64,000 nucleotides of DNA from Ascidia mentula (taxonomy: Eukaryota; Chordata; Ascidiacea; Phlebobranchia; Ascidiidae). Made by a program: the position numbers and the translations under genes. Where the stretch lies: the NCBI GenBank assembly GCA_947561715.1, contig OX387202.1:12041001-12105000 (forward strand). Direction: 5' to 3'. The notes beneath the pieces were generated by a model. The model worked only from the letters and a program-made list of their open reading frames with translations, did not search any database and was not told the origin of the DNA. Each line of letters starts with the position of its first letter. Within the stretch, counting starts at the first letter, position 1. Of the stretch, positions 1 to 43,574 are shown one piece after another.

Positions 1-2
1 AG

Positions 3-3000
3 GACAAGACCCAAAGCCTTCCAAAACCACCAAACCAAAGAATCTGAATCTTGAAAAGATTCTTATGAGGCCTGAAAACGGCGCAACAAAAATACCGGCA
101 CCTGTTTGTATTAATGAGGCCTTTAAAAGATTTGAAAGTATTCGCCAAAGAGAGTATGTCCTCCCAGGTCAGTTTATGTCGTATATTTTTTATTTAGGCG
201 TTAAATAAGATTTTTGTAAACCAATATTTTCTTCAGAACGCTTAAAACGAAAAAGAGTAAAACCGACGATCAACAAAAAAACAGGAGGTTTGTTGCAATG
301 GTTTAAAGATAGAGTTTTCAGAAAGAAAAAGAAATCTTCTGACAAGGTTGCTGCTGACCCAGAAGTTCCCAGTATATCTGCTGGTAGGACGGGTAAAGGA
401 AAAGTAAGTCTAATTCACCTTGTAAACACTGAGGCGTTGAAAGTGTTAAACAAACGACACTACTGTTTTTCCAGCCAAAACCTGCGACCGACACAAAAGA
501 CAATGTGCTACAGTCGACGGACGGAAAAAAAGACGAAACAACATTCAAAGTAACTTGTTATATTGACTTAGTATTTCTTCGGTAATTAATAATTTGTTGA
601 ACTGTTTGCAGCAACTGAAAACCAGCGACATTCATAAGATAAAAGACATAAAGTCCCGGTCAGATTTCTCAACTATAAGAGGTAATATTCCAGGTTTAAC
701 ATATATTTTTCCGACGTTTACATGTGTATTGTTAGGTGTGTTGAAAGGAAAATCACCGATAAAGTGTAACAAAGTCAAGCACAGTGACCAGTTACACAAC
801 AGTGCTGAAATCGCATGTCCTGAAATTCCGGGTAAATAATTAATCACTTACTAAAGCCTATTTGACTTTCGTAAGGTTTTTGATGCTTACAAGATCATTT
901 TGTAACATCTCCTCGCCGAGCCCAAAGAAATAAAAAATATTTATTCAAATTGCATGAAATCATATATGGACAAATCTCGCATGCATGGTGATCAGGGCTG
1001 ACATCTGTCTGTAAGCAAAAATAAGAAATGAAAATAGAATATAACCCTAATTTTCCAACACAAACATTTTTTCGAAAACAACATTTCTTCTTTTAAATAC
1101 ATTAATTAACAGATTTATGACAAAATTGAGTTTCAAAACTACACTATTTATAGCATGCATAGTGTGTCAACAAATTCCTTGGTGAAATATTTTCCATAAA
1201 CATGATAAATATGCATGTACGGTGGTTTGGGAAAATCTGGCATTAACTCTTACTAGAATCAAGACAAACATGATGCACGTTACATACATATTCGATTTTA
1301 CAAATAAAGACAAAATCAGGAAAACTTATAGTAGAAAGTGCGATGTGGCGACTTCGATGCGAGATTGAATCGCACTGTTAACAAATAAATTACATTACTT
1401 CACCTTTCAAGAAAAATTACATAATTTTTTTGGCTGTTTTGTTTACAGGTGATAAAAAGCAAACTTTACCACTGGTCTCTGAACAATTCAAAACATGTGG
1501 CCTATTAGGTGCAATGAGTAATGAGTCTTCGCATGCTGTGGGAGAATTGTGCGAACCAGGGAAACATGAGAGGGTTGAAAGAAATAGAAGTCCTCCATCT
1601 TGCTCCACTTTGACTCCAGCAGGTACAGTTGACAATATATTTGCTATATAAACTACGGTATATTTATTTTGCACTTTTCTAGGTGCTACATCCGAAAAGT
1701 TTGTCAAAGTTTCGAGTTCGGAATTATCGCGTGTTCTTCGACGACCTAACGATGAAACTTCTCAAATTCCGACTCTCAAGAAAACAGGAGACTCCCTCAT
1801 TCCGTATCACAGCAGTCGGAAAATTGTCGACAATTTCAGAAAGCGACAGGAGAAGGAGAAAATAAGAAGAAAAACGCTTCCAGCATGCGCCTTTTACAAA
1901 GTCAGAGGTAAATTTTTATTCAAAACTTTCTTCGGAAAAATTTGCTTTCAGTAAGAAACATAAAACGAATGCTACCTTTACAGGACAAGACCCAAAGCCG
2001 ACAAGGAATATTAAACCTAAGAATCTAGATGTTGAAAAGATTCTTTTGAGGCCTAACAATGGTCCTACTAAAATACCAGCACCCGTTTGCATTGGTGAGG
2101 CGTTTGAAAGATTTGAAAGTATTCGCCAGAAGGAGTATATTCTACCAGGTCTGTTTATGTCGTATAATTTGACTCGAGCGAGGATTTATTTAAACACAGA
2201 TTTTTTTGCAGAACGCCTGGTAAGAAAGAAGGTGAAACCCGCAATTGACAAAAAAACAGGACGGCTCTTAAATTGGTTTAAAAAGAAATTGTGTCGGAAA
2301 AAAAGAGAATCTTCTGACAAAACTATTGTTTCAAAAGTTAACGACGTATCTGCTTGTGCAGAGAATTATGAACAAGTACGTTAAAAACGAAAGTGCGTCA
2401 CACTAATATTTTACAAGACCATCGCTATTTTATCAGCCTAAACCTGAAGCCCAATCAATTGAAAATTTCCTGCAGTCAGAGGAACGCAATAAAGACCAAA
2501 CAATATTCAAAGTTAGTTTTTATATTAATTTAGTGGGCCTAGTTGATCGGTCATTTTGAATGTTTAAACTGTGTTTAGCAACCATATTCCAATGACATCC
2601 AGAAGATAGAAAGCATAACAAATCGACCGGATTTCACAAATATAAAAGGTAATATTTCTGCTTCATTGACAAAGGCGTTTCGACATTTTACATGTGTATT
2701 AAATTGTCAGGTGAGTCAAAAGGGAAAATATCTGCACCAACACAAACCGGTGAGCAAAGCAACATTGAAATCCCCAGTCAAGAAATAATACCGGGTAACT
2801 AATTGATTTCTTCCATTGCCGATTTACCTTTCGTACAGTTTTTAAACTTTCATCATCATTCAATTAAGAAAACTCACCATTTGCATTGTTTCCCGTTATT
2901 GCTGAAAAAATGCATTTCGTTTTGAAAAAATGTCATCTTGGCCGTCTCAAAATATGATAACTAACTAAAAAAATTAAACGACTTAATTTCTACGTAAACT

Positions 3001-4077
3001 TTAAACTAAACAAATGAAAAAACATTGACATTTTTCTTACTGTGTTTTGTTTAGGTGATGAAAATCAAATTCCACCTCTAGCCATTGATGAAGAAGAAGC
3101 ATTGAATTTTGTCATGAGAAAAGGTGATGACAGAAAAAAAACAAAACAATTTCCTGCTATATAAATGATTTTATTTAATTTCAGGATCAGCATTTCAGAA
3201 CCACGAGACGATAAACTCTGTTTCTTCTTTGCATTCTTCGACAAATTCAGGATCAACCAAATATTCTCCTTGTCCCCAGTTGCTTGAACCCATGATTCAA
3301 GCGCCAATCTTGACCGACTTGAGCACTACTGAAGGACAAACAAGATGTGATGGCGCAGAATGTCATTTTCGCCCTAAACCCAATACGGGGCCGATAAAAT
3401 TAGACGTGGAAAATTGGAAATCTACATCAGGCCTTGTCAAACTTCCATTAGCAACCGACCAAGAGTCAATTGAAAATCATCTTTGCGTCAAAAAAGAAAA
3501 CTTACCTGCAGTAAAGAGTATTGACACTGCGCATTCTTCAAAAACCAATTTAAAGAAAGATGAACTTGATATTTACGTACAAGGCGTAAAAATAAAGATC
3601 CTTAATACAATGCTGGAGGAAGCAAAAAAAGAACTACGTGATAGAGGAGGGAAGAAAAAACAAAAGGAAGTAAAGACGAAGCAAACGAACTCGATAGGAG
3701 TACAGACAAGCAACATAACAAGAAGCAAAGACAAGGGATGCCAAACATCGGCCATTATAGAAATTCCCCAGCATTTGTTCCTGGATAAATTACCACCGTC
3801 AGTGACAAGTCAAAAAGAAAACCCGGAAAGTGTTGAGGACAATTTAGACCCATTCTGCACACCACCTCAAAGCACATTACCGACTCCAAGTACACCAAGA
3901 AAAATGCTTGAATTTATTCAAGAAAATTTAGACCCATTCTGCACACCACCTCAAAGCACATCACCGACTCCAAGTTCGTCAAGAAAAATGCTTGAATTTA
4001 TTCAAGATGTGAGAAGATTTCGAAAATATTTCGATCAAAAATACTCAGCGAGAAGGAGGAATACTGATTCTCAGTAA
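3..4077 (+). CDS. Kinase-tail protein, array copy 0 (3' part only)
   Basis: This is the tail-encoding part of a gene repeated three more times in the window; its kinase domain lies before position 1. Fourteen exons can be placed by splice sites and by alignment to the other copies: 3-167, 237-403, 475-549, 612-681, 736-831, 1449-1622, 1683-1907, 1984-2148, 2212-2375, 2437-2511, 2579-2648, 2711-2794, 3055-3123 and 3185-4077. Every junction keeps phase and no stop is seen, so the visible part looks intact. The product is basic and Lys/Ser/Pro-rich, with no recognised domain outside the kinase. Two successive exon sets resemble each other (see the repeat entry). The last exon encodes about 297 residues, with a 28-residue tandem duplication near the end and two QT motifs. 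The function of the tail is unknown. Confidence 0.8.
3841..4008 (+). repeat. 84-bp coding tandem duplication in the last kinase-tail exon
   Basis: Two 84-bp (28-residue) units lie in tandem. Each begins with a Leu-Asp-Pro-Phe-Cys core, continues with a Thr/Ser-Pro rich stretch and ends in a Lys-Met-Leu-Glu helix-like segment. The same pair is present in the last exon of copies 1, 2 and 3 (about 26,110-26,280, 34,597-34,765 and 43,337-43,505). The TP and SP sites could be phosphorylated, but this is only inference. Confidence 0.85.
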
Positions 4078-5937: not shown

Positions 5938-8900
5938 TTATTTTGGGAACAATGGTGACACCGTTTCTATGGTGTTGATTTTATCGCCGTTTTGCGCCGA
6001 CTTTATAGCAGCAACGATATCCTGCGTGTATGGAAAGCCATGTGTGGCGAGTTTTGAAAACACAGATTTGTTGTTAGTGGACACTTCAAGTGAACTTTGG
6101 CGACCAACAAATCCAGTGACATTGATGTTGTCAGTCTGAGATTCGAGTTCTTCTTTCAATCAATAGAAGCGTCCACTGTAGCCTCAGCTACCACAATATT
6201 AAACAGAAACTTCCACAGGTGCTTTACTCATGATTGTTACAAAACAAACTCAAATTTGAATAACAAAAAAACCTTATTCAAATAGATGTATCAGATGGTA
6301 AAGAGAAACAACATGGCACACTTTATTTTTGTAATGTTAGCCGTTTGGATTGTATTCTGTAGTTCAGTTAAGATGGCCCATTTGCTTGGAAGTTTGACTT
6401 TATGTAAATAGGTACTGTTTAGTGGAGGCTAACGACTAACTTTGACTTAATTTATTGTTAGTCTGTAGTGTGAGTGTAATATTTCTACAATATTTTTTGA
6501 AAAAAGTCTTTAAAAAACAACCTTTTGAAGAAGTGAAATATCACAAATGTTAATTTTATTTATTTCCCGACAGCACACGAGCATCCTTTCTTCTCGAAGG
6601 AAACTCGGAAGGTTCACTATGTTCGAAAAACGCTTTGTACCGCAGCTACTGTGTGCGCCTTTCGGGTATTTATTCGTGCGTGTCGTGTATGTTGTCCGAT
6701 CAAGATTGGTGTGTGGGCAGTCAATAAAGTGGTGAACTGGTGGAAGCCGTATTTAGACAGCGGCAAATTTCAGCAAATATGAGCTACGTGTAATTTATTC
6801 CAATGTATATAACTGATTCAAATTGTGGAATAAGTACAGGCGTTGTTGAATTTAAAAGCGCATTTAAAATTACATAAAGCCAATTTGCTGGAACTCTTCG
6901 TAACAAAGCATGACTCAATTTTCTTCTTTTCTTGGTATTGTCGTTTCGTAGTTCCCTTAGTGACAACCGAAGTAAACAAAAAGCGATTTCACAGAGAAAA
7001 ATATTTACCTTTGCCAGTGTTTAAAGTGTGGTCACCAACCTCCATATACGTGTGACTTAAAACGTTATTTTCTTTACCAGTTTGAAGAATATCTGTGTCT
7101 GAACAATAGGCTTACTTTAGCAATTTATTGTGAATTTTTAACTACGTACCGTAGACATGTTGTTCTTCTTTGGTTTGTTGTGGCTGAACTGGGAGGTTGA
7201 CGTATTCTTGTTGTACTTCTTGTGGCTGAGCTAAAAAATAGCGTAAAACACGTGTAAAATCATTTCCCCAAAAAGCTGTCTATCTGAGTACATAATAGAA
7301 TTAAACATAAACATATGAAATCATAATTGATACTGCTGTTTACCATAGAGAAGATTTTCGTGACTGGTATACGCAATGAAATCTATGGCCGTATATTCCG
7401 AACAACTTTTTAGTTCTTTAAACAACGACTTCGTATAGTTGGTGCACCTAGTCCGTTAAGTTTGATCTCAGCACATTTTAAAACAGGACTTCCCAAACTT
7501 TTTTGATCCACTCTTGCATACAACTGACAGCGAGAAGACATACAGAATCACCTCAACGGTAGCCAATGTGTTTGGCGTCCTAAATGTTCGCGGCCCATAA
7601 TTTTAAAAGTCCTTGGTTGAAACATAATGCCGGAAAACATAATTTAAAGAACCTAATTTAATTTAAAGATGTGTGTTTAAATACGAACTCTATTAAAATA
7701 CCATTTTTGCCATTTAATATCCCTTTTCGATGCAGCCACATACCGAGAGCAGCCATCAAAGTTACCAGCACCAATCCACCAACAACGCTTGCAGCAATCA
7801 CAGCATTGTTGTTAGATGTGGAAACTAGGTCGCTTGATATTTGAAACATAGCACTAAGTGAACTTATCGATGAACGAATAAAAACCTGGTAAATCTCAGT
7901 ACCACCAGTTACCTGTAAATATAGATAAGCAATAAAACAAATATTTTCATTATATAAAGTTTTTACCTCTGTAAAAAACACGAAGTTTTGAGAAATCAAC
8001 CCATTGGCTTCAAACCGACAATCGGAACAAACAAATGGATTTTTATTTAAAGTAATTGTGAAGTTTGTTGCTGGTGGATTTGATGTGAAAGTGACAAGAC
8101 ATGTGCTGTTTTCCACTTCACTCCAAGTACAGTCTGTATTTCCACTTAACATTTCCAGGGAAACTTAAGAACAGAATATTTGGGAATGTTTACTTGACAA
8201 ATTTGTATGCCATATTTAAATAAGTTTTACATGAAACATCCAGAAAAAAATGATTCCATGATTTTCCAAAGCTATCGCTGGTGTTACAAGAATAATTTCC
8301 CCAATCATGTCTTGTCAAGTTAGTAAGTTGTAGCAATGCAGTATTTGTATCAGTGATTCGACTCGGTGACGGAATTTCCCATTGAAACTTGGTATTTAGT
8401 TCTGTTTGGTAAGGAATACTGCAGGATAGCTCAAAGTCTTCTCCAGCGTAAATCCCATTGTTAGTAGAAGGTGTAATTCGTGCTTCTGTTAACCCTGCAA
8501 TACCAAGTAGGCTAAATTTATGCAGATAACTTGAAAGTAAATTGTATCAAACTTACTAGTTTCATTTAATACAACAACTTGGATTTGAGGAGATTCGTCA
8601 ACACCACCTACACTGTTGTCAGCAACACAGGATATATTGTTTGATTCATTGAACATGTACGAGAAAATGCATTCGTTTTTTTCATAAGTGAAAGTTCCAA
8701 TAACAAATGTACAAGTGGGTTTGGGATTCGCGTCACTTTCACAGGACATTGTCACATTTTGTGCGGAGTTAAGAAGTATTTCATTATTTGAAACTGCGAT
8801 ATCCGGAGATATTTTAGCTTTTAATTGCGTGGATTGTGGTTGGTCTAAAATGAGCGTGACGTATAAGTTACCAAGTATTGAACGTGTTTAAATTCACATA

Positions 8901-11135
8901 CAAAGTACATCTATGTAGGTCTGAGTTGCTGATCTTCCAAATGCATCGATTACTTCACATGTATAATTGCCTCTGTTGTACCGAGTAATGTTGTTAATAA
9001 ATAAAGTTTGGTTGGTAGACGAAACTTGTGGAGTTATCCATTTAAATGTAGCGTTGAGTTCATTTTCATAAATTATGCTGCAAGTTAGAGTTAATGCACT
9101 TCCTTCAAGCAAGGGTTGGTCCTCTCCATTTATGCTTGGAATCCCTGTGAAACGTAATCAGTATGACGTATTTGATACAACTCTTATTGTTTATGGTACT
9201 TACTGTCTTCAACAACCACGAAAGCAATTGCGTCACTGGAGTTGTCTCCAGCACAATTGCTTACAACGCATGAAAGGTTTTTGGACTGTTCCAGATTTAC
9301 TTGTGTTTCACAAAATGAAAGAATTGGGCTCAAATCGAAATTCCATGTACAGTTGTAAGGTTCACTTGATTTTCCCTGACACGAAATGCTTACAATTTGA
9401 ATGCCATTTAGGAGTACAATGGAGTCGCTTTTCACGATATTGTTATCGGTTAACACTGAAATAGTGACGTCACTTGGGGCATCTGCGTAAATCGTCAACC
9501 AATTGTTGAACATTTCACAGTTAATAAAATGCAAAGTTGATTGCTACCGATTAATTTAATTGTTTGGATTTTTGATCTTCCAGAATTGTTATAAGTTAAC
9601 ATCTCGGTGAATGGAGTCACAGCTTGGCACGAAACATTTATTCCGCCATGTTGTGGCCACAGATTGATAAAAGAAGTTGTGTCCTGCAGTGAAAAAAGCA
9701 ATGAAAGCCCGAACGCATCTTGCAAACATTTCACCTTTTCGACAGAAACAAACATATTTCCAATGTAGTAATTACTTTTGTTTCCTATGGGAATTGTATC
9801 TTCGTATACACAATTTAAACTCCATATTCCACCAACATGTGGACAAGATCCGGTGACCAAAATACCCTTTGGAGCTACGAACAAGACAAACAATTATCAC
9901 TACGGACATTGAAGTGTAATTACCAGCATTTCATCTAAATATATTTTATTTCTTGATTAAATTTAACGATATGGTATCTCTGGTGTTAGTTTGGTCAAGT
10001 TTATTTCTGGATCCAGTTTTATTCAAGTACAATTTTGAATTTTTACCCATTTCATTCATATTGTACAAGTTTATTGTGTAAAATATCCAAAATATATATA
10101 TGTCAAACTTCGGGTATGGTTGCTATCTTTGTTACACAAAAAACTTGTACTGTTAGATTTAAAAATGTAACCTAATCCAATGATAAACTAATACATAGGT
10201 TACAGGCAAATATTGCCATCTTAATGCCTAATATAAGGAATTAATTTACGAAAGAACACAAATCAACTTTGTAACACTTTTACATTTCCATACCTGCCCA
10301 GCATTCCAAACCATCACTTTCCAGCCACTTAGCTGTTTCAGTGCATCTAGTTTTATTGTTTGTTTGAAGTGTTGAGTTGGAGTAAAATAAATAGCCTCCA
10401 TTATTACAGTAAAATTCTCCAATAGATTGATAAATGTTGTTGTTTGAAAGGACGATTAAATTATGAAGCAATTCCGCAGGACATCCTGGCAATAAAAAAG
10501 GGAAAGAAATGATAACTCCGACTCTAAAATATTTTATTCTTTAATACCAATCTATTGACCTATTATGCTTATTTCGTAAGTGCACACAAAACCTCCATTA
10601 TTAAATGTCACTGTTGATTGATTCTGGCTTTCTGTCAGTGGGATATCTGCGTATAGTGAAATTGTTTGTGATGAATTAAATGGGATGCACTTTGTATCAA
10701 AATAATCTCCGTCAACAGGTTTAACAGCTGTCGAACAATCACAGTAATATGCTCGGTGCTCGGTTAATATGCTGTTGGTTGTGACCGATATCGTCGATAG
10801 TTGGATGGAATCACACGGGTTGTAAATATTGTAAAGCAAGCCATGGTATCCCAATGACCACTGTATATGTGTTGGTTGGATAACAACATTGGTTGCTTTA
10901 TTGCATTCTGAAAAAAAATGAAAAGTAACAATTCTAATAAAATATATAATGCTATAAGTTTAAAGAAAAGTGTCACGGAAATTAAATTACAAGCAAAATG
11001 ACAGCCTAATTGTTTAAACTTGTTGCGAATAAACATAATTTTGAAATTGTTTTCCGTACCTTGTATTTCGCTGGTGGTTTTGTTTGCAATGATTTGTAAC
11101 ATCAATAAACGAACGTACTCCAGCCTAATTCGCAT
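5938..11135 (-). CDS. Ig/CCP-domain transmembrane receptor, 923-aa model
   Basis: Thirteen exons on the - strand: 11135-11060, 10907-10560, 10485-10294, 9874-9548, 9482-9204, 9144-8902, 8844-8557, 8494-8231, 8163-7967, 7912-7702, 7230-7146, 7055-7009 and 6152-5938. Their lengths sum to 2,772 nt, an exact open frame. The order is a weak signal-like start, an Ig-like module with several Cys, one sushi/CCP module (ends Leu-Glu-Cys-Trp), then about six Ig-like modules. Clear examples are TLTC...GNYTCEV and ELSC...GNYSC. A membrane helix (about 7,750-7,810, rich in Ala/Val/Leu) is followed by a basic HRK stop-transfer and a cytoplasmic tail with YVNL and YMEV tyrosine motifs. Many Asn-X-Ser/Thr sites suggest an extracellular glycoprotein. 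The first and the last three exons are least certain. Ligand and function are not recognisable. CCP/Ig receptors of this type include tunicate allorecognition candidates, but that link is inference. Confidence 0.65.
11060..11135 (-). other. Possible first coding exon of the receptor
   Basis: An ATG at 11,135 starts 25 residues with Arg residues, then a short hydrophobic run (VRLLMLQIIA), and ends at a GTACGG donor in phase 1. The next exon at 10,907 accepts phase 1. If real, it provides a start that avoids the damaged distal exons. The signal-peptide character is weak, so the alternative is that transcription starts at 18,812. Confidence 0.4.
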
Positions 11136-12690
11136 TGCTGCTCTACTATATATAATCAAATTATAAAATTCAACAGCTGCTCTACTATATACAAATTCAA
11201 CAGCAGTTAAAACGAACTTATTAATAGGTATTTTATTGTTGCCCATTTTTTGTACGTAATAACGACGCAGTTTCACGTACAAAAACAAAACATTTCCTGA
11301 AGTCCGAGTACTATGCTATTCAAACATATGCCAACATGAACAACGTTATCATTAATTTATTTAAATACTTGGATAAAACGTTGTTATTAAATCATCTTGT
11401 CCTTATACTGAATTAAATATAATTGACATATTCAGTCATTTTAGACTGTCGGTTTTTGTGTATTGCGCAGAATTTGGAAAATTAACCTGGGGAAAATCAT
11501 GATTAACATTACAAAGTTAATTTTAATAATGATAAAAACGTTGGAATAATAAAGTCATCAGGTGACAAAATGACATTGGTGAGGCCCCAAGACGTAACAG
11601 GAAGGTGTCACAAGCGCACCTGACGTCAACTATTTAAAAACACATAAACTAATTTTACTGAGGGATACAAAACCGCGATCCGCAGTGTGCACCAGGCCCA
11701 AAGGATTTGAGCAGCCGAACTGGTACAAATGCATAAAGTTTCCACACAGGCCAAATAAGTTGAAAACTAACAGTATCTGTTCAAAATTTTAAAATCAATA
11801 AGTTAATGCGGCTTAATAAGCTAAGACGCCATGGTTACGAATAAATGAATGCATGACACAGCGGAAATGTATTTTGGTTAAATACAGCTTATCTAAAACA
11901 TCATATGGCCCTAAGATTAGAAACGATCAAAAATATCAAATTCCAAAGCAATTATCTTTATTTCCACCTGTCTTTTATAAAACAAAGCAGCTAGTTTGAC
12001 ATTTTGGTTTAACACCAACTCCTCAACTTCAACATGGAGAATTGTTTACTTGCTCCAATGAACTGACACAAATAATTGTAATGCATAATTGACATCATGT
12101 TGATTAAGATTGTTTTTGTTATCCTCATTCAAATTAATATATCTCAAAACAATAGCAAGAACTTATTAACAGCCCAGAACCTCAGATCTACAATGCGAAT
12201 GTCTATACTACGCATTTTATACGCAGACTGCTGAGCAAACATGGTTGAGAAGTCAAGCGATCAGCCCCGATTCCATGGGCTGCAACATTTTTTCACAAAT
12301 GGTAGTAGGTTCGGATATTTTTTTAAACATACCAAATTACTTTTTTCTTTGTGTGTGTATTCTCTTTATCACGTCACTGAAACATTGTGACGTCATACTT
12401 TTTAATGATTCAAAATCGGTTACGTAACTCAGCCCTCATAAAACAGTAGAAGTTATAGAAGCATGAATATAAAATTACTGTAAAATGATATTGAAAATGG
12501 GTTCAGGCCTGAGATATGACTAAGCGTTAAACCAACACAGCAGTTGACAGAAAGTTAAATCATTATTTTAATTAACCTCATTTTATTTCGTATTTCAGAA
12601 ATTTACGTTTCCCATTCAGCTAAACTGAACTAATGAAACGTTATTGCTTGTAGGAGTCGTTACTTTCGGGTAGATCTTTTGCGCAACAAG

Positions 12691-12750
12691 TGAACAGTCG
12701 ATGCTTTACTTGAACAGTCGATGCTTTACTTGAACAGTCGATGCTTTACT
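12691..12750. repeat. 20-bp tandem repeat, three exact copies
   Basis: The unit tgaacagtcgatgctttact is repeated three times without a mismatch. It lies in non-coding DNA upstream of the shorter receptor model. No function is evident. Exact copies suggest a recent slippage event. Confidence 0.95.
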
Positions 12751-15232: not shown

Positions 15233-15308
15233 CCGAATCCGAATATCGTCACCGAATCCGAATATTGACACCGAATCCGAACATCGACGCCGAATCCGAA
15301 TGTTGGCC
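15233..15308. repeat. 19-bp tandem repeat, four diverged copies
   Basis: Four units begin with ccgaatccgaa followed by a variable eight-base part. A related word, ccggattcggtccgaatt, occurs again near 15,539. Copies differ at several positions, so this is an older minisatellite than the one at 12,691. Confidence 0.85.
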
Positions 15309-16447
15309 CTATCCGTGTGTTTTACTCAAATTTAAGCCACAATACTGAGTATTGCGCATTGTCGTTGTTTTTGTACAAGAAAAGGGAAATTTGTACACAC
15401 GAAAAAAGGATTATAACACTGGCAAATTTAATGCCTAAATTATGACATGTGAATAACATTTATGTTGCTATATCGACAATATGAAAGATTCGTGTGAGTT
15501 TTATGATCAATTTGTAAATTTAGGACGTGATTTATTATCCGGATTCGGTCCGAATTGATTGGATATTGGGTGCCAAATACTAAGTATTGTGATTTTATAT
15601 GTCGTTTTGGTAAAAATCATTCCTAAAAATACCAATAAAAACCCTGCAATATTTAGCCCAAAGTCGTGCGAAAACACACCACGTGACACAAAATTAATAC
15701 GTTTCAATCACAAGCCAGCCCCCTGTTTTACCAAAATTACAGTGGTTCTCAATATTTGATAAATGTTTTTTTTATTTGCAGTTACATTCTAGAAAATCCT
15801 TTTTAATATGCAAGCTGAGAGAAATTAAACTATTGGGTAGCGTACACAACCAAGAAGGCGTAAGGATTATTGAAGGACCCAAATTTCAAATGCAGAATGA
15901 TTTTAATGACAAACTAAATTAAATCTTTGTGAAGTCCTGACGCAGTAAGATTAATATACAAGAAAAATATCTTTTTTTTACTTCAGGGAACTATTGTCGA
16001 TTTCAGTTTTGGAAACTATTGCCAATTTCAATTTTGGGAACTATTGTCGTTTACCATGGATTCAATCTAAAATCAAACAAAAAATGGTCACGAAACATGT
16101 AATATACACTGACCAGATGTGCATTTCTGAAACATACCAAAGGCAGCATAATTAACGACCATGAACTCTTGTTCCTACAGCGTAGCAATACATGACAAAT
16201 GCTGTTGTAAAAAAGACGGAAAAAACAACGCAGGTCAACATTGTTGCCCATTTCCAATCATCCCAATCTATTCAAACACACTTTGTTTAAAAATAGTTTA
16301 AATTTAAGGATCCAAAATGCAGAAACTTTTTCTGTCATTTGCAAACCTACAAACGTTTGAGTGCGAATAACGACAAGCACTTTTCGTTTAAAATTTGTAC
16401 AAAATATAATATGTGCAAAATCCAAAGTCTTTTAAATGGTTTCTTAC

Positions 16448-27661: not shown

Positions 27662-27904
27662 GGTTAGATCTAGTCATGTGTTATTTGATAATACAAAGTA
27701 CATTTTGCTATGATTAAAGGAAAGGAATTATATTGCTCTTTAAACCAAAACTGACAGATATAAACATGTTGTTTTTATTTTAATAAACCAGTTTGACATA
27801 AATACACACCCACGTTTCAATATGTAATAGTTTTTAAAGCATATTCAATCAAATTATACCCAACCATAAATAAAAACTTGAAATAAATTCAAACAATAGC
27901 ATTA

Positions 27905-31000: not shown

Positions 31001-34000
31001 AAAACGAAAAAGAGTAAAACCGACGATCAACAAAAAAACAGGAGGTTTGTTGCAATGGTTTAAAGATAGAGTTTTCGGAAAGAAAAAGAAATCTTCTGCC
31101 CGGGCTGCTGCTGACCCAGAAGTTCCCGGTATATCTGCTGGTAGAACGGGTAATGGAAAAGTAAGTCTAATTTACCTTGTAAATAGTGAGGCGTTGAAGT
31201 ATGAAACAAACGATATTACTATTTTACCAGCCAAAACCTTCGGACGACACAGGAGACAAAATGCTACAGTCAACGGACGGATAAGATGAAGACAAAGCAA
31301 CATTCAAAGTAACTTGTTATATTGACTTAGTATTTCTTCGGTAAATAATAGTTTGTTGAACTGTTTGCAGCAACTGAAAACCAGCGACATTCATAAGATA
31401 AAAGACATAAAGTCCCGGTCAGATTTCTCAACTATAAGAGGTAATATTCCAGGTTTAACATATATTTTTCCGACGTTTACATGTGTATTGTTAGGTGTGT
31501 TCAAAGGAAAATCACCGATAAAGTGTAACAAAGTCAAGCACAGTGACCAGTTACACAACAGTGCTGAAATCGCATGTCCTGAAATTCCGGGTAAATAATT
31601 AATCACTTACTAAAGCCTATTTGACTTTCGTAAGGTTTTTGATGCTTACAAGATCATTTTGTAACATCTCCTCGCCGAGCCCAAACAAATAAAAAATATT
31701 TATTCAAATTGCATGAAATCATATATGGACAAATCTCGCATGCATGGTGATCAGGGCTGACATCTATCTGGAAGCAAAAATAAGAAATGAAAACAGAATA
31801 TAAACCTAATTTTCCAACACAAACATTTTTTCGAAAACAACATTTCTTCTTTTAAATACATTAATTAACAGATTTATGACAAAATTGAGTTTCAAAACTA
31901 CACTATTTATAGCATGCATAGTGTGTCAACAAATTCCTTGGTGAAATATTTTCCTTAAACATGATAAATATGCATGTACGGTGGTTTGGGAAAATCTGGC
32001 ATTAACACTTACTAGAATCAAGACAAACATGATGCACGTTACATACATATTCGTTTTTACAAATAAAGACAAAATCAGGAAAACGTATAGTAGAAAGTGC
32101 GATGTGGCGACTTCGATGCGAGATTGAATCGCACTGTTAACAAATAAATTACATTACTTCACCTTTCAAGAAAAATTTCATAATTTTTTTTGGCTGTTTT
32201 GTTTACAGGTGATAAAAAGCAAACTTTACCACTGGTCTCTGAACAATTCAAAAGATGTGGCCTATTGGGTGCAATGAGTAATGAGTCTTCGCATGCTGTG
32301 GGAGAATTGTGCGAACCAGGGAAACATGAGAGGGTTGAAAGAAATAGAAGTCCTCCATCTTGCTCCACTTTGACTCCAGCAGGTACAGTTGACAATATAT
32401 TTGCTATATAAACTACGGTATATTTATTTTGCACTTTTCTAGGTGCTACATCCGAAAAGTTTGTCAAAGTTTCGAGTTCGGAATTATCGCGTGTTCTTCG
32501 ACGACCTAACGATGAAACTTCTCAAATTCCGACTCTCAAGAAAACAGGAGACTCCCTCATTCCGTATCACAGCAGTCGGAAAATTGTCGACAATTTCAAA
32601 AAGCGACAGGAGAAGGAGAAAATAAGGAGAAAAACACTTCCAGCATGCGCCTTTTACAAAGTCCGAGGTAAATTTTTATTCAAAACTTTCTTCGGACAAA
32701 ATTTGCTTTCAATAAAAAACATAAAACGAATGCTACCTTTACAGGACAAGACCCGAAGCCGTCAAGGAATATTAAACCTAAGAATCTAGATGTTGAAAAG
32801 ATTCTTTTGAGGCCTAACAATGGTCCTACAAAAATACCAGCACCCGTTTGTATTGGTGAGGCGTTTGAAAGATTTGAAAGTATTCGCCAGAAGGAGTATA
32901 TTCTACCAGGTCTGTTTATGTCGCATAATTTGACTCGAGCGAGGATTTATTTAAACACAGATTTTTTTGCAGAACGCCTGGTAAGAAAGAAGGTGAAACC
33001 CGCAATTGACAAAAAAACAGGACGGCTCTTAAATTGGTTTAAAAAGAAATTGTGTCGGAAAAAAAGAGAATCTTCTGACAAAACTATTGTTTCAAAAGTT
33101 AACGACGTATCTGCTTGTGCAGAGAATTATGAACAAGTATGTTAAAAACGAAAGTGCGTCACACTAATATTTTACAAGACCATCGCTATTTTATCAGCCT
33201 AAACCTGAAGCCCAATCAAATGACAATTTCCTGCAGTCAGAGGAACGCAATAAAGACCAAACAATATTCAAAGTTAGTTTTTTTTTAATTTAGTGAGCCT
33301 AGTTGATCCGTCATTTATTAATGATTAAACTGTGTTTAGCAACCATATTCCAATGACATCCAGAAGACAGAAAGCATAACAAATCGACTGGATTTCACAA
33401 ATATAAAAGGTAATATTTCTGTTTCATTGACAAAGGCTTTTCGACATTTTACATGTGTATAAAATTGTCAGGTGAGTCAAAAGGGAAAATATCTGCACCA
33501 AAACAAACCGGTGAGCAAAGCAACATAAAAATCCCCAGTCAAGAAATAATACCGGGTAACTAATTGATTTCTTCTATAGCCGATTTACCTTTCGTACAGT
33601 TTTTAAACTTTCATCGTCATTCAATTAAGAAAACTCACCATTTGCATTGTTTCCCGTTATTGCTGAAAAAATGCATTTCGTTGCGAAAAAATGTCATCTT
33701 GACCGTCTCAAAATATGATAACTAACTAAAAAAATTAAACGACTTAATTTCCATGTAAACTTCAAACTAAACAAATGAGAAAACATTAACATTTTTCTTA
33801 CTGTGTTATGTTTAGGTGATGAAAATCAAATTCCATCTCTAGCCGTTGATGAGGATGAAGCATCGAATTTTATCATGGAAGAAGGTGATGACAGTTTAAA
33901 AATAATTTCCTGCTATATAAATGATTTTATTCAATTTCAGGATCAGCATTTCAGAACCACGAGACGATAAACTCTGTTTCTTCTTTGCATTCTTCGACAA

Positions 34001-34833
34001 ATTCAGGATCAACCAAATATTCTCCTTGTCCCCAGTGGCTTGAACCCGTGATTCAAGCGACAATCTTGACCGACTTGAGCACTACTGAAGGGCAAGCAAA
34101 ATGTGATGGCGCAGAATTTCATTTTCGCCCTAAAACCAATACGGGGTCAATAAAATTAGAAGTGGAAAATTGGAAATCTACATCAACTTGTGGCAAACTT
34201 CCATTAGCAACCGACCAAGAGTCAATTGAAAATCATTTTAGCGTCAAAAAAGAAAACTTACCTACAGTAAAGAGTATTGACACTGCGCATTCTTCAAAAA
34301 CCAATTTAAAGAAAGATGAACTTGATATTTACGTACAAGGCGTAAAAATAAGTATCCTTAATACAATGCTGGAGGAAGCAAAAAAAGAACTACGTGATAG
34401 AGGAGGGAAGAAAAAACAAAAGGAAGTAAAGACGAAGCAAACGAACTCGATAGGAGTACAGACAAGCAACATAACAAGAAGCAAAGACAAGGGATGCCAA
34501 ACATCGGCCATTATAGAAATTCCCCAGCATTTGTCCCAGGATGAATTACCACTGTCAGTGACAAGTCATAAAAAAAACCCGGAAAGTGTTGAAGACAATT
34601 TAGACCCATTCTGCACACCACCTCAAAGCACATTACCGACTCCAAGTACACCAAGAAAAATGCTTCAATATATTCAAGACAATTTAGACCCATTCTGCAC
34701 ACCACCTCAAAGCACATCACCGACTCCAAGTTCGTCAAGAAAAATAATTGAATTTATTCAAGATGTAAAAAGATTTCGAAAATATTTCGATCAAAAATAC
34801 TCAGCGAGGAGGAGGAATACTGATTCTCAGTAA
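28042..34833 (+). CDS. Kinase-tail gene, array copy 2 (kinase whole, stop in tail exon 13)
   Basis: Kinase exons: 28042-28236, 28334-28447, 28504-28709, 28776-29006, 29065-29192, 29260-29384, 29456-29498 and 29559-30241. Tail exons: 30305-30404, 30463-30687, 30762-30926, 30994-31160, 31231-31308, 31371-31440, 31495-31590, 32209-32382, 32443-32667, 32745-32909, 32973-33136, 33198-33272, 33340-33409, 33472-33555, 33816-33884 and 33941-34833. Kinase motifs are intact: GGGAVGRV glycine loop, VAIK lysine, HRDLKLEN catalytic loop, DFG and APE. Exon 13 carries TAA at 31,282-31,284 where copy 1 has AAA. Exon 13 is 78 nt and bounded by phase-0 introns, so skipping it would restore the frame. Without skipping, the product keeps the kinase and about half of the first tail block. 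Confidence 0.75.
31282..31284 (+). other. In-frame TAA in copy 2 exon 13
   Basis: In the phase set by flanking exons the codons read Asp-Gly-stop; copy 1 reads Asp-Gly-Lys at the same place. A single A to T change explains it. Reading depends on exon 13 being included in the mRNA. Confidence 0.75.
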
Positions 34834-36332: not shown

Positions 36333-36340
36333 TGACGTCA
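36333..36340. promoter_or_regulatory. CRE palindrome upstream of kinase copy 3
   Basis: TGACGTCA lies 130 bp before the copy 3 ATG, as in copies 1 and 2. Confidence 0.6.
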
Positions 36341-36469
36341 TAAACGTATCTTGGGAAGCCAAGTTGTTGGTTGCTGTGTGAGAAAATATATTACCCTCGT
36401 TTTGCATTCTAGTGTGCGGTTGTACATTACAAATTGTTGCAAAATCTCATCTGTGTTGAACAGAAAACA

Positions 36470-39400
36470 ATGGATCACCGTTTCGAAAGTCAATTGTTGA
36501 AGAAGGAAAAAGCTGCGTGTCATAGTAAGGGCTATGACATGGCAGAGAGCAAGTTTCTTGGTGGTGGGGCAGTTGGCCGGGTATTCTCGGCAAATGTGAT
36601 GGCAGATACAATTGCCAACAAGGAAAAAATGAGAGCTATCAGTGAAACTGGGAAGCAACTAAAGGTTAAACAAATATATGTTGTAATATATTAACTTATC
36701 AACATTGGTATTTAAAATATATTAAACGTACTTTCTTCAATGGTTTTAAATATTGTACTAGGTTGCAATTAAGATTATTTATGCTGATCTTGGTGCCTCA
36801 AGACTCAGCAAGTTGGCCGAGTGTGTACCCAACGAAATCAGCATTTTAAACAAAGTATTTGGACATCCTAACATTGTACGTATCTTTTATCGTTAGTGAT
36901 AAACTGTTGTGTTTTAATAAATTATTTTTAGATAATGTTACTGGACGTTTTTATCTCCGACAAGCGGATTTATCTGGTCACGGAGTATGCCGCAAAAGGC
37001 AATTTGAAGCAGGTTTTGCATTCTTTTGCTCATACGAACAGATTTGTGCCGTATTTGTCAGAAACAACTGCCAAATATTACTTTAAAAAAATGTTATGTG
37101 GAGTGCAGAAATTGCACGAAAACAACATCGCTCATCGGTAGGATTTAAATTTGCAAATAAATAATCAAACATTTTTTAATACAAAATAACAATCGATACA
37201 AAGGGATTTGAAGCTGGAAAACATTTTTGTATCGGAGGACGGAGAGGTAAAATTGGGAGACTTTGGCTATGCCACTGAGATTCCAGTGTTGGATCCAAAC
37301 AAAAATATTCAAGAAAAGCTTCAGGCCATGCTAAATAGGCCTACTAACCAATGTGGGACAGCACCATACATGGCTCCGGAGGTATTAATGAAATTTTGCG
37401 GGTACAACGCTATCTTTGCAGATCTTTGGTCAATGTAAGTCATCTCAGAACATCAACTTTTTTCAGTCCACTAACTATAGCTTATCGTTTAGTGGAATTC
37501 TACTTTTTGTTCTGGTTAATGGATATTTTCCGTTTCCCGGGAAAACCGTGGAAGAGGTTTTGGACCAATATAAGAGTTCAAAGAATAAAGAGCTTCCATT
37601 TCGTGAAAGCGTTTCTCTTGGTTGGTTATTGTCGTTAATTCTTAATATTCAGCATTTCAAACAATATTCTGTATTTTCTGTATACAGAGTGCAAGGATTT
37701 GGTAAATCAATTACTGAATATTAAATCCTTTCAAAGGCCTAATGTTAGCACAATATTTCGTCATCCCTGGATGATTGATTTGGATTTAACTTCTTTCTGT
37801 GTTCCGAGATATGTAAGTATCTTCAGCAACAGCATATCACAATCAACGCATTTAATATATTTAAAACTCAGTATCATTTTCAGCCACTGTTACGCAGTGA
37901 ATTGAAGAGAATTGAAGAAAATCCATGCAAGTTTTACAAAGTTATTAAAATAGGGAGACATTGCAATGTTTTTTTTTGGTTCACAGTGTACAAATATCAA
38001 TCGAATTACGTCTCAAACTATCTCGTCCAGAGAAGGGATCTAATTAAAGATCGTCGTGTGTTCTTTAAAAGCAAAACAATCCCTGGTCATCACACTGCTG
38101 ACGAGTTTGGTATTCAAATACGCCTTCCTCGTCAAGATACAAATGGTACAAGTGTGTACGAGATATGGCGATTTACAACCAATCCCAAGGAAGTTGGTTG
38201 TAAAGAAATTGGGATCGACGAAAATACTTCACTTGGTTTTTCGTCGATCTTTGCAAGTGGCGATGAAGAAGCAACTCTTGGGATGCCGAAAGTGACGCAA
38301 ACCCTAGAAGAGTTACCGCTTTTACAAGTATGGCAAGAAATCCGAGATGACAATTTGCCGCCGTTCGCCAGCATTGAAAAATGCGTCCAACTTTGTAATA
38401 CAGTTGATTTAGACACAAACGAAAGCTGGCCATTAAGTTTTAATATTCCTCACCCTGAGCAAGAGTGGGTTAAAGTTGTTGGTTTTCCTGACAACTTCAG
38501 TTCAAATTCCACATTCAAAGTAAACGAGGATGGCATCCGTATGGTTTTGTCCCATGTTGGAAAATGCAGCATCGCACCCAAAGACGTCCTTGCAATTCCA
38601 CCAACAGTGGATGCAAATAACAATAGTGTTATCCCAATGGATACTGAAATAACAAAGAAACACAAAGTGGTCAGTGATTTAAATTTACTCAAAAATTTAC
38701 CACAAAATCATAGACTTATGTTTGTTTAATATTTCGAAGATTCCAAATCAAAACCGATGCCAATTGGGAGAACCGGAGAAATGCAAGAAGGTTGAAATAA
38801 TTGGAAGTCTTCCATCTTCTTCCGCATGCATTCCATATGGTGAAGTAGACAATTTAATTGCCAAATTATCTTTAACCGTCCACTTTGCATTTTGTAGGTG
38901 TTGCACCGAAAAAAACTGGTAACGTTTCTTCTTCGGATTTGCCGCGAATTCTACATCGACCTAACGAAGAAACTTCTCAAATTCCTACTCTCAAGAAAAC
39001 AGGAGACTCCCTCATTCCGTATCACAGCAGTCGGAAAATTGTCGACGATTTTAGAAAGCGACAGGAGAAGGAGAACATAAGAAGAAAAACACTTCCAGCA
39101 TGCGCCTTTTACAAAGTCCGCGGTAAATTAATATTTTTTATAACAATTTGCTCGAATGTTTGGTATTAAATCACGTAAAAACCGCCACCCTTTCAGGACA
39201 AGACCCAAAGCCTTCAAAAACCATCAAACCAATGAATCTGAATCTCGAAAAGATACTTTTGAGGCCTGAAAACGGCGCAACAAAAATACCGGCACCTGTT
39301 TGTATTAATGAGGCCTTTAAAAGATTTGAAAGTATTCGCCAAAGAGAGTATGTCCTCCCTGGTCAGTTTGGTCGTATATTTTTTATTTAGGCATTAAATC

Positions 39401-42400
39401 AGATTTTCGTAAACCAATATTTTCTTCAGAACGCTTAAAACGAAAAAGAGTAAAACCGACCATCAACAAAAAAACAGGAGGTTTGTTGCAATGGTTTAAA
39501 GATAGAGTTTTCGGAAAGAAAAAGAAATCTTCTGACAAGGTTGCTGCTGACCCAGAAGTTCCCGGTACATCTGCTGGTAGCACGGATAATGGAAAAGTAA
39601 GTCTAATTCACCTTGTAAACACTGAGGCGTTGAAAGTGTTAAACAAACGACACTACTGTTTTACCAGCCAAAACCTGCGACCGACACAAAAGACAAAATG
39701 CTACAGTCGACGGACGGAAAAAAAGACAAAACAACATTCAAAGTAACTTGTTATATTGACTTAGTATTTCTTCGGTAATTAATAATTTGTTGAACTGTTT
39801 GCAGCAACTGAAAACCAGCGACATTCATAAGATAAAAGACATAAAGTCCCGGTCAGATTTCTCAACTATAAGAGGTAATATTCCAGGTTTAACATATATT
39901 TTTCCGACGTTTACATGTGTATTGTTAGGTGTGTTCAAAGGAAAATCACCGATAAAGTGTAACAAAGTCAAGCACAGTGACCAGTTACACAACAGTGCTG
40001 AAATCGCATGTCCTGAAATTCCGGGTAAATAATTAATTACTTACTAAAGCCTATTTGACTTTCGTAAAGTTTTTAAAGCTAACACGATCATTTTGTAACA
40101 TCTCCTCGCCAAGCCCAAAGAAAAAAAATATATTTATTTAAATTGCATGAAATCATATATGGACAAATCTCGCATATATGGTGATCAGGGCTGACATCTA
40201 TCTGGAAGCAAAAAATAAGGACTGAAAATAGAATATAAACTAAATTTACCAACACAAACACAAAGGTTTTATTCGGGAAAAAACATTTCTTCTTTTACAT
40301 GCGTCAAATAACAGATTAATGACAAAATTGCATTTCAAAACTACACTATTTATAGCATGCACAACTTGCCAACAAAATTCCTTGGTGAAACATTTTCCTA
40401 AAACATAATGAATATACATGTACGATGGTTTGGGAAAAGCTGGCATTAACTCTTACTAGAATCAAGGCCAACATGATGCACGTTACATACATATTCGTTT
40501 TTTACAAATAAAGACAAGGAAAACTTGTTGTAGAAAGTGCGATGTGGCGACTTCGATGCGAGATTGAATCGCATTGTTAGCAAATAAATTACATTACTTA
40601 ACCTTTCAAAAAAAATCAAATATTTTTTTTTGGCTGTTTTGTTTAGGTGATGAAAGGCAAACTTTGCCACTGGTCTCTGAACAATTCGAAAATTGTGGCC
40701 TATTTGGTGCAAAGAGTAAGGAGTCATCGCATTCTCTGCATGCCAGTTTGAAGAAACAAGATCTTCAAACAAATCTGGAGGCAACTCTCTCGTACGATTT
40801 TACAATTTATAGATCGTTGGATACAAACCAGACTGTGGGAGAAGCACAAATATTAAAAAAACGAAAACTGGTGAGTGAATAATTTTACCCATTAAATATG
40901 CCCCCAAATTCACGCACCAAGTTTAATTTATAATTTTAAAGATTTCAAATCGAAACCAACAAGTAATATGCGAACTGGAAAAACACAAGGGAATTGAAAG
41001 AACTGGAAGTCTTCCACCTTGCTCCACTTACTCTCCAGCAGGTGCAGATGAAAATGTATTTTCAATATTACGTACGGTATATTTACTTTTGACTTTTCTA
41101 GGTGCTAAGTCCGAAAAGTTTGTCAAAGTTATAAGTTCGGAATTGTCGCGTGTTCTTCGACGACCTAACGATGAAACCTCTCAAACTCCGACTCTCAAGA
41201 AAACAGGAGACTCCCTCATTCCGTATCACAGCAGTCGGAAAATTGTCGACGATTTCAGAAAGCGGCAGGAGAAGGAGAAAATAAGAAGAAAAACACTTCC
41301 AGCATGCGCCTTTTACAAAGTCCGCGGTAAATTTATATTTTTCTTCGGACAAAAATGTTCTTTTGACAAAATTTACTTTCAATAAAAAACATAAAACGAA
41401 TGCTACCTTTACAGGACAAGACCCGAAGCCGTCAAGGAAGATTAAACCTAAGAATCTAGATGTTGAAAAGATCCTTTTGAGGCCTGACAATGGTCCTACT
41501 AAAATACCAGCACCAGTTTGCATTGGTGAGGCGTTTGAAAGATTTGAAAGTATTCGCGAGAAGGAGTATGTTTTGCCAGGTTTGTTTATGTCGTATATTT
41601 TGATTCGAGCGAGATTAAGATTTATTTAAACACAGATTTTTTTGCAGAACGCCTGGTAAGAAAGAAGGTGAAACCCGCAATTGACAAAAAAACAGGACGG
41701 CTCTTAAATTGGTTTAAAAAGAAATTGTGTCGGAAAAAAAGAGAATCTTCTGACAAAACTATTGTTTCAAAAGTTAACGACGTCTCTGCTTGTACAGAGA
41801 ATCATGAACAAGTATGTTAAAAACAAAAGTGCGTAACAGTAATATTTAATAAGACCATTGCTGTTTTACCAGCCTAAACCTGAAGCCCAATCAATTGACA
41901 ATTTCCTGCAGTCAGAGGAACGCAATAAAGACCAAATAATATTCAAAGTTAGTTTTTATATTAATTTAGTGGGCCTAGTTGATCGGTCATTTTTGAATGT
42001 TGAAACTGTGTTTAGCAACCATATTCCAATGACATCCAGAAGACAGAAAGCATAACAAATCGACCGGATTTCACAAATATAAAAGGTAATATTTCTACTG
42101 CTATTTTTGTTGCCAGGCATACTAGTTAATCAGAATTGCTCTTCTGGTAATATTTCTGCTTCATTGACAAAGGCTTTTCGACATTTTACATGTGTATAAA
42201 ATTGTCAGATGAGTCAAAAGGGAAAATATCTGCACCAAAACAAACCGGTGAGCAAAGCAACATTGAAATCCCCAGTCAAGAAATAATACCGGGTAACTAA
42301 TTGATTTCTTCCATAGCCGATTTACCTTTCGTACAGTTTTTAAACTTTCATCATCATTCAATTAAGAAAACTTACCATTTGCATTGTTTCCCGTTATTGC

Positions 42401-43574
42401 TGAAAAAATGCATTTCGTTGTGAAAAAATGTCATTTTGAGCGTCTCAAAATATGATAACTAACTAAAAAAATGAAACGACTTAATTTCTACGTAAACTTC
42501 AAACTAAACAAATGAGAAAACATTAACATTTTTCTTGTCAACTGTGTTTTGTTCAGGTGATGAAAATCAAATTCCACCTCTCGCCGTTGATGAAGAAGAA
42601 GCATTGAAACTTGTCATGGGGAAAGGTGATGACAGTTTAAAAAAAATTTCCTGCTATATAAATGATTTCATTCAATTTCAGGGTCAGCATTTCAGAACTA
42701 CGAGACGAAAAACTCTGTTTCTTCTTTGCATTCTTCGACAAATTCAGGATCAACCAAATATTCTCCTTGTCCCCAGTTGCTTGAACCCATGATTCAAGCG
42801 CCAATCTTGACCGACTTGAGCACTACCGAAGGACAAACAAGATGTGATGGCGCAGAATTTCATTTTCGCCCTAAACCCAATACGGGGCCGATAAAATTAG
42901 ACGTGGAAAATTGGAAATCTACATCAACTCTCGGCAAACTTCCATTAGCAACCGACCAAGAGTCAATTGAAAATCATCCTTGCGTCAAAAAAGAAAACTT
43001 ACCTGCAGTAAAGAGTATTGACACTGCGCATTCTTCAAAAGCCAATTTAAAGAAAGATGAACTTGATATTTACGTACAAGGCGTAAAAATAGGTATCCTT
43101 AATACAATGCTGGAGGAAGCAAAAAAAGAACTACGTGATAGAGGAGGGAAGAAAAAACAAAAGGAAGTAAAGACGAAGCAAACGAACTCGATAGGAGTAC
43201 AGACAAGCAACATAACAAGAAGCAAAGACAAGGGATGCCAAACATCGGCCATTATAGAAATTCCCCAGCATTTGTCCCAGGATGAATTACCACTGTCAGT
43301 GACAAGTCATAAAGAAAACCCGGAAAGTGGTGAGGACAATTTGGACCCATTCTGCACACCACCTCAAAGCACATTACCGACTCCAAGTACACCAAGAAAA
43401 ATGCTTGAATATATTCAAGACAATTTAGACCCATTCTGCACACCACCCCAAAGCACATCACCGACTCCAAGTTCGTCAAGAAAAATGATTGAATTTATTC
43501 AAGATGTAAAAAGATTTCGAATATATTTCGATCAAAAATACTCAGCGAGAAGGAGGAATACTGAATTTCAGTAA
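36470..43574 (+). CDS. Ser/Thr protein kinase with long basic tail, array copy 3 (intact)
   Basis: 25 exons: 36470-36664, 36762-36875, 36932-37137, 37204-37434, 37493-37620, 37688-37812, 37884-37926, 37987-38669, 38740-38839, 38898-39122, 39197-39361, 39430-39596, 39668-39742, 39805-39874, 39929-40024, 40647-40870, 40942-41041, 41102-41326, 41415-41579, 41648-41811, 41873-41947, 42016-42085, 42209-42292, 42557-42625 and 42682-43574. They sum to 4,692 nt (1,563 aa plus stop). The kinase domain covers about residues 24-340: Gly loop near 30-36, catalytic Lys 69, HRDLKLEN 171-178, DFG 191-193, MAPE 228-231, then DLWSIG and a HPWM end motif. The motif style suggests the CAMK group (TSSK/SNF1-like), and an active enzyme is expected. 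The DFG-APE segment is long (about 41 residues). The 1,200-residue tail is basic, repeat-built and unrecognised. Intron 7 has a GC donor. Confidence 0.85.
37927..37986 (+). other. GC-AG intron in kinase copy 3
   Basis: The donor reads GCAAGT, where copies 1 and 2 read GTAAGT at the same junction. The rest of the site is a perfect consensus, which is typical of functional GC donors, so splicing is probably kept. Confidence 0.8.
38740..42292 (+). repeat. Internal duplication of a seven-exon block in the kinase tail
   Basis: Exons 9-15 (38,740-40,024) and 16b-22 (40,942-42,292) of copy 3 are paralogous in order, phase and length: 100/100, 225/225, 165/165, 167/164, 75/75, 70/70 and 96/84 nt. 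Products match too, for example LIPYHSSRKIVDDF in both 225-nt exons, KIPAPVCI in both 165-nt exons, and ERLKRKRVKP versus ERLVRKKVKP. The preceding exon ends also match (KKHKV versus KKRKL). Equivalent blocks lie in copy 1 (22,141-25,069), copy 2 (30,305-33,555) and copy 0 (partial, to 2,794). The block was duplicated before the genes were. Confidence 0.9.

Follow-up and report, generated by a model that had tools for sequence, protein, structure and literature searches.

Nested duplication in a kinase gene family of the ascidian Ascidia mentula: a tail block doubled within the gene and whole genes multiplied in tandem

The kinase array and its gene models

A window of 64,000 nucleotides from the ascidian Ascidia mentula (assembly GCA_947561715.1, contig OX387202.1, positions 12,041,001 to 12,105,000 of the forward strand) carries a tandem array of protein kinase genes, in each of which the kinase domain is followed by a long tail containing two paralogous runs of exons. 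Coordinates are given as window positions (Table 1), and negative values lie to the left of the window, where 30 kb of flank was added. The chromosome bearing the window and the array is referred to as C70, and a second chromosome with members of the same family as C52. An initial annotation of the window described four copies in tandem; all four are present, but the array has five members in total, Z, 1, 2, 3 and 4, with Z wholly outside the window, and its continuity is interrupted by a 13.5-kb insert. The annotated feature runs from position 3, where exon 11 of copy 1 starts, to position 43574, where exon 24 of copy 4 ends. As expected of a tandem array, neighbouring copies share the same orientation and are closer to each other than to other family members.

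The gene model of copy 3 was built by hand from a three-frame reading, and the remaining copies were mapped from it, with a separate model required for exon 16 of copy 4. All internal junctions of the 24 exons of copy 3 are GT-AG and their phases are continuous; both properties are retained in Z, 1, 2 and 4, apart from the sole GC donor of copy 4, which follows exon 7. The reading frame is uninterrupted over 1486 amino acids (aa) in Z, 1513 aa in copy 1 and 1563 aa in copy 4. In copy 2, exon 1 is one base short (194 instead of 195 nt), resulting in a frameshift, and copy 3 has a TAA at 31282-31284 within exon 13. This exon (78 nt, phase 0-0) is frame-neutral, so that skipping it would preserve the frame. 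Exon 24 harbours an 84-nt unit that occurs twice in each of copies 1-4 and once in Z and in the pair of C52 genes that were read; its duplication constitutes a third scale in the locus.

The kinase domain spans six exons (1-6). The description of an active-looking kinase is borne out by a match to PF00069 (E 1.5e-54, 185.6 bits against a cut-off of 31.7) and by the catalytic motifs in the translation of copy 3, namely the glycine loop (GGGAVG), VAIK, HRD (as HRDLK), DFG and APE. The tail is long and basic, as initially described: in copy 1 it comprises 1165 aa with a pI of 9.5 and 198 lysines and arginines versus 144 aspartates and glutamates. It was also said to lack a recognised domain, and this agrees with a Pfam scan of four tail pieces (exon 8, exons 10-12, exons 17-23 and exon 24), which returned no match above cut-off, and with a PDB search using exons 8 and 24, which returned no significant match. 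Two assignments were considered and rejected, exon 24 as bL12m (PDB match, E 0.21) and block 2 as DUF4411 (E 0.013, below cut-off).

Two paralogous blocks in one tail

In copy 3 the exons of block 1 (9-15) measure 100, 225, 165, 167, 78, 70 and 96 nt and those of block 2 (17-22) measure 225, 165, 164, 75, 70 and 84 nt, preceded by an exon 16 of 174 nt, the final 100 nt of which are the exon 16b of the initial annotation. The reported agreement of block lengths and phases therefore stands, with two amendments: exon 13 is 75 nt long in copies 1 and 4 and 78 nt in Z, 2 and 3, and 16b is for the most part not an exon of its own, since exon 16 is fused in Z, 1, 2 and 3, while in copy 4 an intron separates 16a (224 nt) from 16b (100 nt).

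Comparison of the whole of block 1 with block 2 by blastn yields E values of 1e-137 to 1e-162, with 68-73% identity over 1.0-1.4 kb including introns (1e-66 to 1e-70 for block 1 of copy 1, which is cut by the window edge). The blocks are thus paralogous beyond chance and, together with the five-copy array, they confirm two scales of duplication in one locus. Exons are 76-77% identical between blocks in the five C70 copies. Introns are 70-77% identical versus 63-67% for shuffled introns, a modest excess over the control, and strong intron similarity is therefore not relied on. Collinear paralogous exons with equal phases inside one gene are what an intragenic duplication leaves behind. Synonymous divergence (dS) between the blocks, calculated over six exon pairs, is 0.65-0.76 in all five C70 copies, and resolves by exon pair into 0.22-0.36 for 10/17, 0.29-0.54 for 13/20 (few sites), 0.75-1.28 for 11/18 and 12/19, and saturation for 15/22.

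Superimposed on this divergence are traces of later exchange. From intron 15 to about exon 19, Z, 1, 2 and 3 are 96-100% identical, whereas copy 4 is 85-96% identical to them, a mosaic that fits the spread of the fused exon 16 by exchange. When exon 10 is compared with exon 17 in each of the five C70 copies, the first 90 bases show 24-29 differences and the last 135 only 3-9. Exon 10 of the solitary C52 gene described below is more distant from exon 17 (dS 0.37-0.56) than from exon 10 (0.23-0.31). Together these figures are read as a putative conversion patch between the blocks.

The family on two chromosomes

Family members were searched for in the entire assembly (195.8 Mb, 79 contigs). Exon 8, with its 227 aa, identified 16 stop-free copies, all at least 85% identical: five on C70, ten at 7.43-7.60 Mb of C52 and one at 15.9 Mb of C52; three further matches are weak (E about 0.4). 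A DNA search with copy 3 recovered the same loci plus many tail fragments.

Exons 1-15 were read in seven of the 11 C52 genes, and two of the 11 were traced to the gene end. Exons 1-8 are open in six of these seven, the seventh (L016) having a frameshift in exon 4. The mapped exons keep their phases and GT-AG junctions in all seven; exons 10 and 15 could not be mapped by DNA in six of them, and tblastn recovered parts of exon 10 in seven and of exon 15 in six. Length changes among the mapped exons 9-15 are multiples of three and affect exons 12 and 13, with the sole exception of exon 15 of the solitary gene (97 versus 96 nt). In the fully read gene of the C52 array, block 2 has no match to exons 17-18. 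The solitary gene (about 15.91 Mb, minus strand; L010 with L019) carries exons 13-15 a second time, downstream of a stretch resembling exon 24, which is a further internal duplication with other breakpoints.

Order of the duplications and the probable junction exon

Three lines of evidence, dS, the trees of two exon pairs and a junction exon on C52, lead us to place the tail-block duplication before the duplication of whole genes, an order that is supported by the sequence comparisons. Set against the divergence between blocks, the comparison of copy 1 with six C52 genes gives a dS of 0.08-0.15 for the kinase and exons 7-8 and of 0.19-0.32 for block 1; the five C70 copies differ from one another by a dS of 0.02-0.11, depending on the segment. 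FastTree phylogenies built from exons 11/18 and from exons 12/19 set the block-2 exons of C70 and C52 apart from those of block 1 (support 1.000); these trees include two and four C52 block-2 segments, respectively, counting a decayed fragment, and the 11/18 tree also contains one stray, distant non-exonic segment of copy Z. The exon 10/17 tree is uninformative on block separation, since no C52 exon 17 was found.

The third line of evidence lies between the two blocks of the C52 array genes, where an exon-23-like stretch is followed by a long exon with an exon-24-like start and an exon-8-like end. A profile of this hybrid exon was built from five C52 sequences (L010 without its end; L014 and L016 excluded). 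It scores 18.0 and 16.5 bits on exon 24, in the right order, and 24.6 bits on exon 16a of copy 4, compared with 7.3 bits for the best of 1500 shuffled exons. The exon-8 side is seen in blastp matches to exon 8 in two of the five sequences (E 3e-5 and 3e-4), the other three retaining too little of the exon-8 part, and in tblastn matches in three of seven C52 genes (E 0.0006-0.002). In the DNA itself, short segments that match intron 22, exon 23, exon 24 and the exon-8 end are arranged in this order, with no copy holding all four. On C70, copy 4 still has 16a, in a shortened form and with its intron. The C52 hybrid exon is read as the probable junction of an intragenic tandem duplication that ran from exon 8 to exon 24; it joins the distal to the proximal breakpoint as such a junction should, firmly on the exon-24 side and more weakly on the exon-8 side.

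Constraint on the kinase and the tail

Ratios of nonsynonymous to synonymous divergence (dN/dS) were compared segment by segment; there are few synonymous changes to count (3-17 for each C70 pair), and the pairs are not independent, owing to exchange between copies. Among the C70 copies, dN/dS is 0.09-0.46 in kinase exons 2-6 (10 of 10 pairs) and 0.26-0.52 in exons 7-8 in nine pairs, with 1.01 in one. In the tail it is 0.55-0.84 for block 1, 0.21-0.54 for block 2 (all 10 pairs) and 0.46-1.41 for exon 24. Within the C52 array, the kinase of five genes gives 0.13-0.43; between copy 1 and C52 the kinase shows 0.39-0.69, exons 7-8 show 0.40-0.63 and block 1 shows 0.56-1.03. Purifying selection acts on the kinase, and the tail is less constrained. 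The conserved unit consists of the kinase and exon 8, and the tail is in flux and repeatedly rearranged.

How the family probably arose

The most probable account, in which we have considerable confidence, is that of a family of at least 16 kinase genes that underwent an internal duplication of a tail block, then spread and was amplified in tandem on two chromosomes, and was subsequently subject to turnover. The ancestral gene would have had the kinase domain followed by exon 8, a single set of seven tail exons and a long terminal exon, a single-block state that we infer. An intragenic tandem duplication with breakpoints in the last exon and in exon 8 would then have created block 2 and the hybrid exon between the blocks, a step proposed because of the block similarity, the phase match and the hybrid exon. 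The two-block gene would have reached two chromosomes and been amplified in tandem at each, a step supported by the trees and dS. Finally, exchange or conversion among copies and blocks, deletions (yielding the fused exon 16), more internal duplications and disabling changes would have followed, which is supported by the identity mosaic, the exon 10/17 patch, the partial third block in the solitary C52 gene and the broken copies. Functionally, the kinase and exon 8 would perform conserved work, and the basic tail may serve as a changeable docking arm.

Several observations weigh against this account. A single-block gene was sought in the genome with copy-3 DNA, exon 8 and exon 24, and none was found. 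The exon-8 side of the junction appears weaker, depending on blastp matches in two of five sequences, tblastn matches in three of seven genes and DNA matches of 38-49 bases, and the hybrid-exon profile did not score exon 8 above shuffled exons. The uneven dS of the exon pairs makes the age of the blocks uneven and requires a conversion event. Constraint on the kinase is weaker between copy 1 and C52 than within each array, and dN/dS in block 1 and exon 24 suggests that the tail may be nearly neutral in places. The assignment of all exons to one transcript is predicted from splice sites and frames, and the product is a putative catalytically competent CAMK/TSSK-like serine/threonine kinase whose function is judged by homology alone.

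Other explanations account for parts of the data. The 24-exon gene might be an over-joined model in which the tail exons form a separate, tail-only family located downstream of each kinase, and indeed kinase-less tail stretches adjoin kinase genes in the C52 array, where similar layouts of DNA matches recur throughout. We consider this very unlikely, since phases continue from exon 8 to exon 9 and then through 24-25 exons that are free of stops in Z, 1 and 4, and the hybrid exon seems to join exon 24 to exon 8, which would make them one unit at the time of duplication. The one tail-only stretch that was read base by base (L017, C52 7451489-7454374), beside a kinase gene, contains in-frame stops in several exons and looks decayed; such stretches were also rejected as candidate single-block genes, L017 being treated as a decayed fragment. 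A two-block tail gene could instead have predated the kinase and been fused to it, a scenario in keeping with the failure to find a single-block kinase gene in the genome. The exon between the blocks, in turn, seems to hold the end of exon 8, implying that exon 8, if not necessarily exons 1-7, was attached to the tail before the block was duplicated, and we regard the fusion as unlikely.

It is also conceivable that the array is largely decaying, with the kinase part of a few copies being the only portion that matters and the tail a passenger sequence. This deserves more serious attention, as disabling changes occur in two of the five C70 copies, block 1 and exon 24 span a dN/dS range of 0.46-1.41 on C70, and stops are present in 32 of the 39 rows that match exon 24 on C52 (these rows include fragments, may cross introns and are not one per gene). 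Nevertheless, Z, 1 and 4 remain open over 1486-1563 codons, block 2 shows a dN/dS of 0.21-0.54 in every C70 pair, and the lengths of the mapped C52 exons 9-15 change in threes everywhere except in exon 15 of the solitary gene, all of which renders decay on this scale doubtful.

With an early tail-block duplication followed by amplification as the preferred account, the locus is a well-resolved case of nested duplication: the paralogues of a single genome reveal the order of events, the approximate position of the breakpoints and the homogenisation that came later. Two points are worth keeping: the hybrid exon at the junction, and the opposition between a constrained kinase and a tail in flux. 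The initial annotation regarded the gene family as unusual, a label that is justified only in part: the duplication processes themselves are well known and the locus is a clear instance of a familiar mode of gene evolution, a disabling change is present in two of the four copies in the window, and the tail is the less constrained portion.

Relationship to known kinases and other systems

A description of this family was not found in the open-licence literature. The nearest solved structures of the kinase domain are MARK2 and MARK3 (E 1e-31, among the 60 best of 2486 PDB matches), and we take the family to belong to the CAMK group. With CAMK kinases it shares the glycine-rich loop, the VAIK lysine, HRD, DFG and APE; it differs in an insert between the glycine loop and VAIK and in its long tail. 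MARK kinases carry UBA and KA1 domains behind the kinase, neither of which was found in the four scanned tail pieces. What characterises the family kinase is a long tail, the tested pieces of which have no Pfam match above cut-off, and a conserved kinase plus exon 8 that are set apart from this tail.

Within the genome, the family kinase is 25-31% identical to 14 other kinases, a sample that leans towards genes with few introns. Three genes labelled TSSK-like are the nearest of these, scoring 108-114 bits, with the next kinase at 102. Two of them, one on C67 and one on the minus strand of C2, group with the family (support 0.862) and with each other (0.997). The C67 kinase matches TSSK6 chains (E 3e-63); the TSSK label of the two C2 kinases is presumed from resemblance and, for the minus-strand gene, also from its grouping with C67. 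In contrast, TSSK6 is absent from the 60 best of 2486 PDB matches of the family kinase, in which MARK ranks first, and the kinase domain, encoded in one open frame in the C67 and C2 minus-strand genes, is distributed over six exons in the family. TSSK kinship is therefore best treated as a lead, favoured by the genome comparison and not by the PDB search. The kinase possibly acts in the male germ line, and its basic tail may dock it. Separately, tight clusters on C1 (at about 2.0-3.0 Mb) and on C2 (at about 0.4-3.3 Mb) hold dozens of matches to kinase domains that have long open frames, and they represent another large kinase expansion in this genome.

Intragenic and tandem duplication are both terms used in a paper on the primate POTE gene family (PMC7073761). 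The protein is unrelated, and the family described here has the added feature that the junction of the internal duplication is seemingly visible as a hybrid exon in paralogues. Exon 24 contains a pair of QT cores, GVQTS and GCQTS, with a spacing of about 14 residues; both are legible in the two C52 genes examined. They resemble the paired non-canonical binding sites of LC8 (DYNLL) that are treated, alongside the motif and GKAP, in PMC3078936 and PMC12797016; neither core fits the full motif as published there. In the two C52 genes the QT stretch is not in one open frame with the start of the exon and may not be translated, and the cores as candidate LC8 sites are a lead only. It is a highly speculative and most improbable idea that selection maintains the tail in flux as a module driven by recombination. 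Duplication, conversion and truncation of the basic exon block across the 16 copies would then adjust where one conserved sperm or gamete kinase docks, for example via the paired QT cores; if true, the evolution of the family would resemble that of a gamete-recognition system and not that of ordinary redundant genes.

The insert and neighbouring repeat-built frames

Table 1. Positions of the kinase gene copies, their tail blocks and associated features in window coordinates
Feature	Position	Strand	Remarks
Copy Z	-10880 to -4162	+	Left of window; 1486 aa open
Copy 1 (A)	exons 11-24 and flank 1..4077; exons 1-10 at -2723 to -72	+	Open over 1513 aa
Copy 1 block 1, exons 11-15	3..831	+	Exons 9-10 left of window
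Copy 1 exons 10 and 17	-296 to -72 and 1683-1907	+	Example of putative conversion patch
Copy 1 block 2, 16b (last 100 nt of fused exon 16) to exon 22	1523..2794	+	
Copy 1 exon 24, 84-nt direct repeat, two units	3841..4007	+	
Insert of 13.5 kb between copies 1 and 2	5974..19492	.	GGT at junctions; minus-strand Ig-domain-like exons
Copy 2 (B), 24 exons	19872..26347	+	Exon 1 frameshift
Copy 2 block 1, exons 9-15	22141..23447	+	
Copy 2 block 2, exons 16b-22	23737..25069	+	
Copy 3 (C), 24 exons	28042..34833	+	TAA in exon 13
Copy 3 kinase domain, exons 1-6	28042..29384	+	
Copy 3 exon 8, 227 aa, no known domain	29559..30241	+	End part probably copied with block 2
Copy 3 block 1, exons 9-15	30305..31590	+	
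Copy 3 block 2, exons 16b-22	32283..33555	+	
Copy 3 exons 23-24	33816..34833	+	Exon 24: 84-nt repeat and putative distal breakpoint region
Copy 4 (D), 25 exons	36470..43574	+	Open over 1563 aa; exon 7 followed by a GC donor
Copy 4 block 1, exons 9-15	38740..40024	+	
Copy 4 exon 16a, unfused	40647..40870	+	Start exon-23-like, end exon-8-like
Copy 4 block 2, exons 16b-22	40942..42292	+	16b a separate 100-nt exon

The insert that splits the array comprises 13,519 bases. It is preceded by TATGGT and followed by GGTTAGATC, and the corresponding units at 27663 and 36091 read TATGGTTAGATC, which leaves a 3-bp GGT repeat at the junctions. Its minus-strand open frames have weak matches to Ig domains, the best being Ig_3 at 8193-8546 (E 2e-6, just below cut-off). 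The positions 5973/19493 were rejected as a true duplication boundary, as the insert merely breaks the alignment there.

Adjoining the kinase array are three neighbouring open frames built of acidic repeats. The frame at 44393-45991 contains several kinds of acidic repeat (DECCDEP and others), and two pieces of it scanned against Pfam gave no match. The same holds for two pieces of a 1789-aa frame on the minus strand (52346-57715), which includes 14 copies of a 96-nt (32-aa) acidic repeat at 54944-56317. Between them, at 47698-51505, approximately 98 copies of a 39-nt unit encode a 13-aa acidic repeat (like EDQTPDSEDDQKA) within an open frame of 1302 aa.

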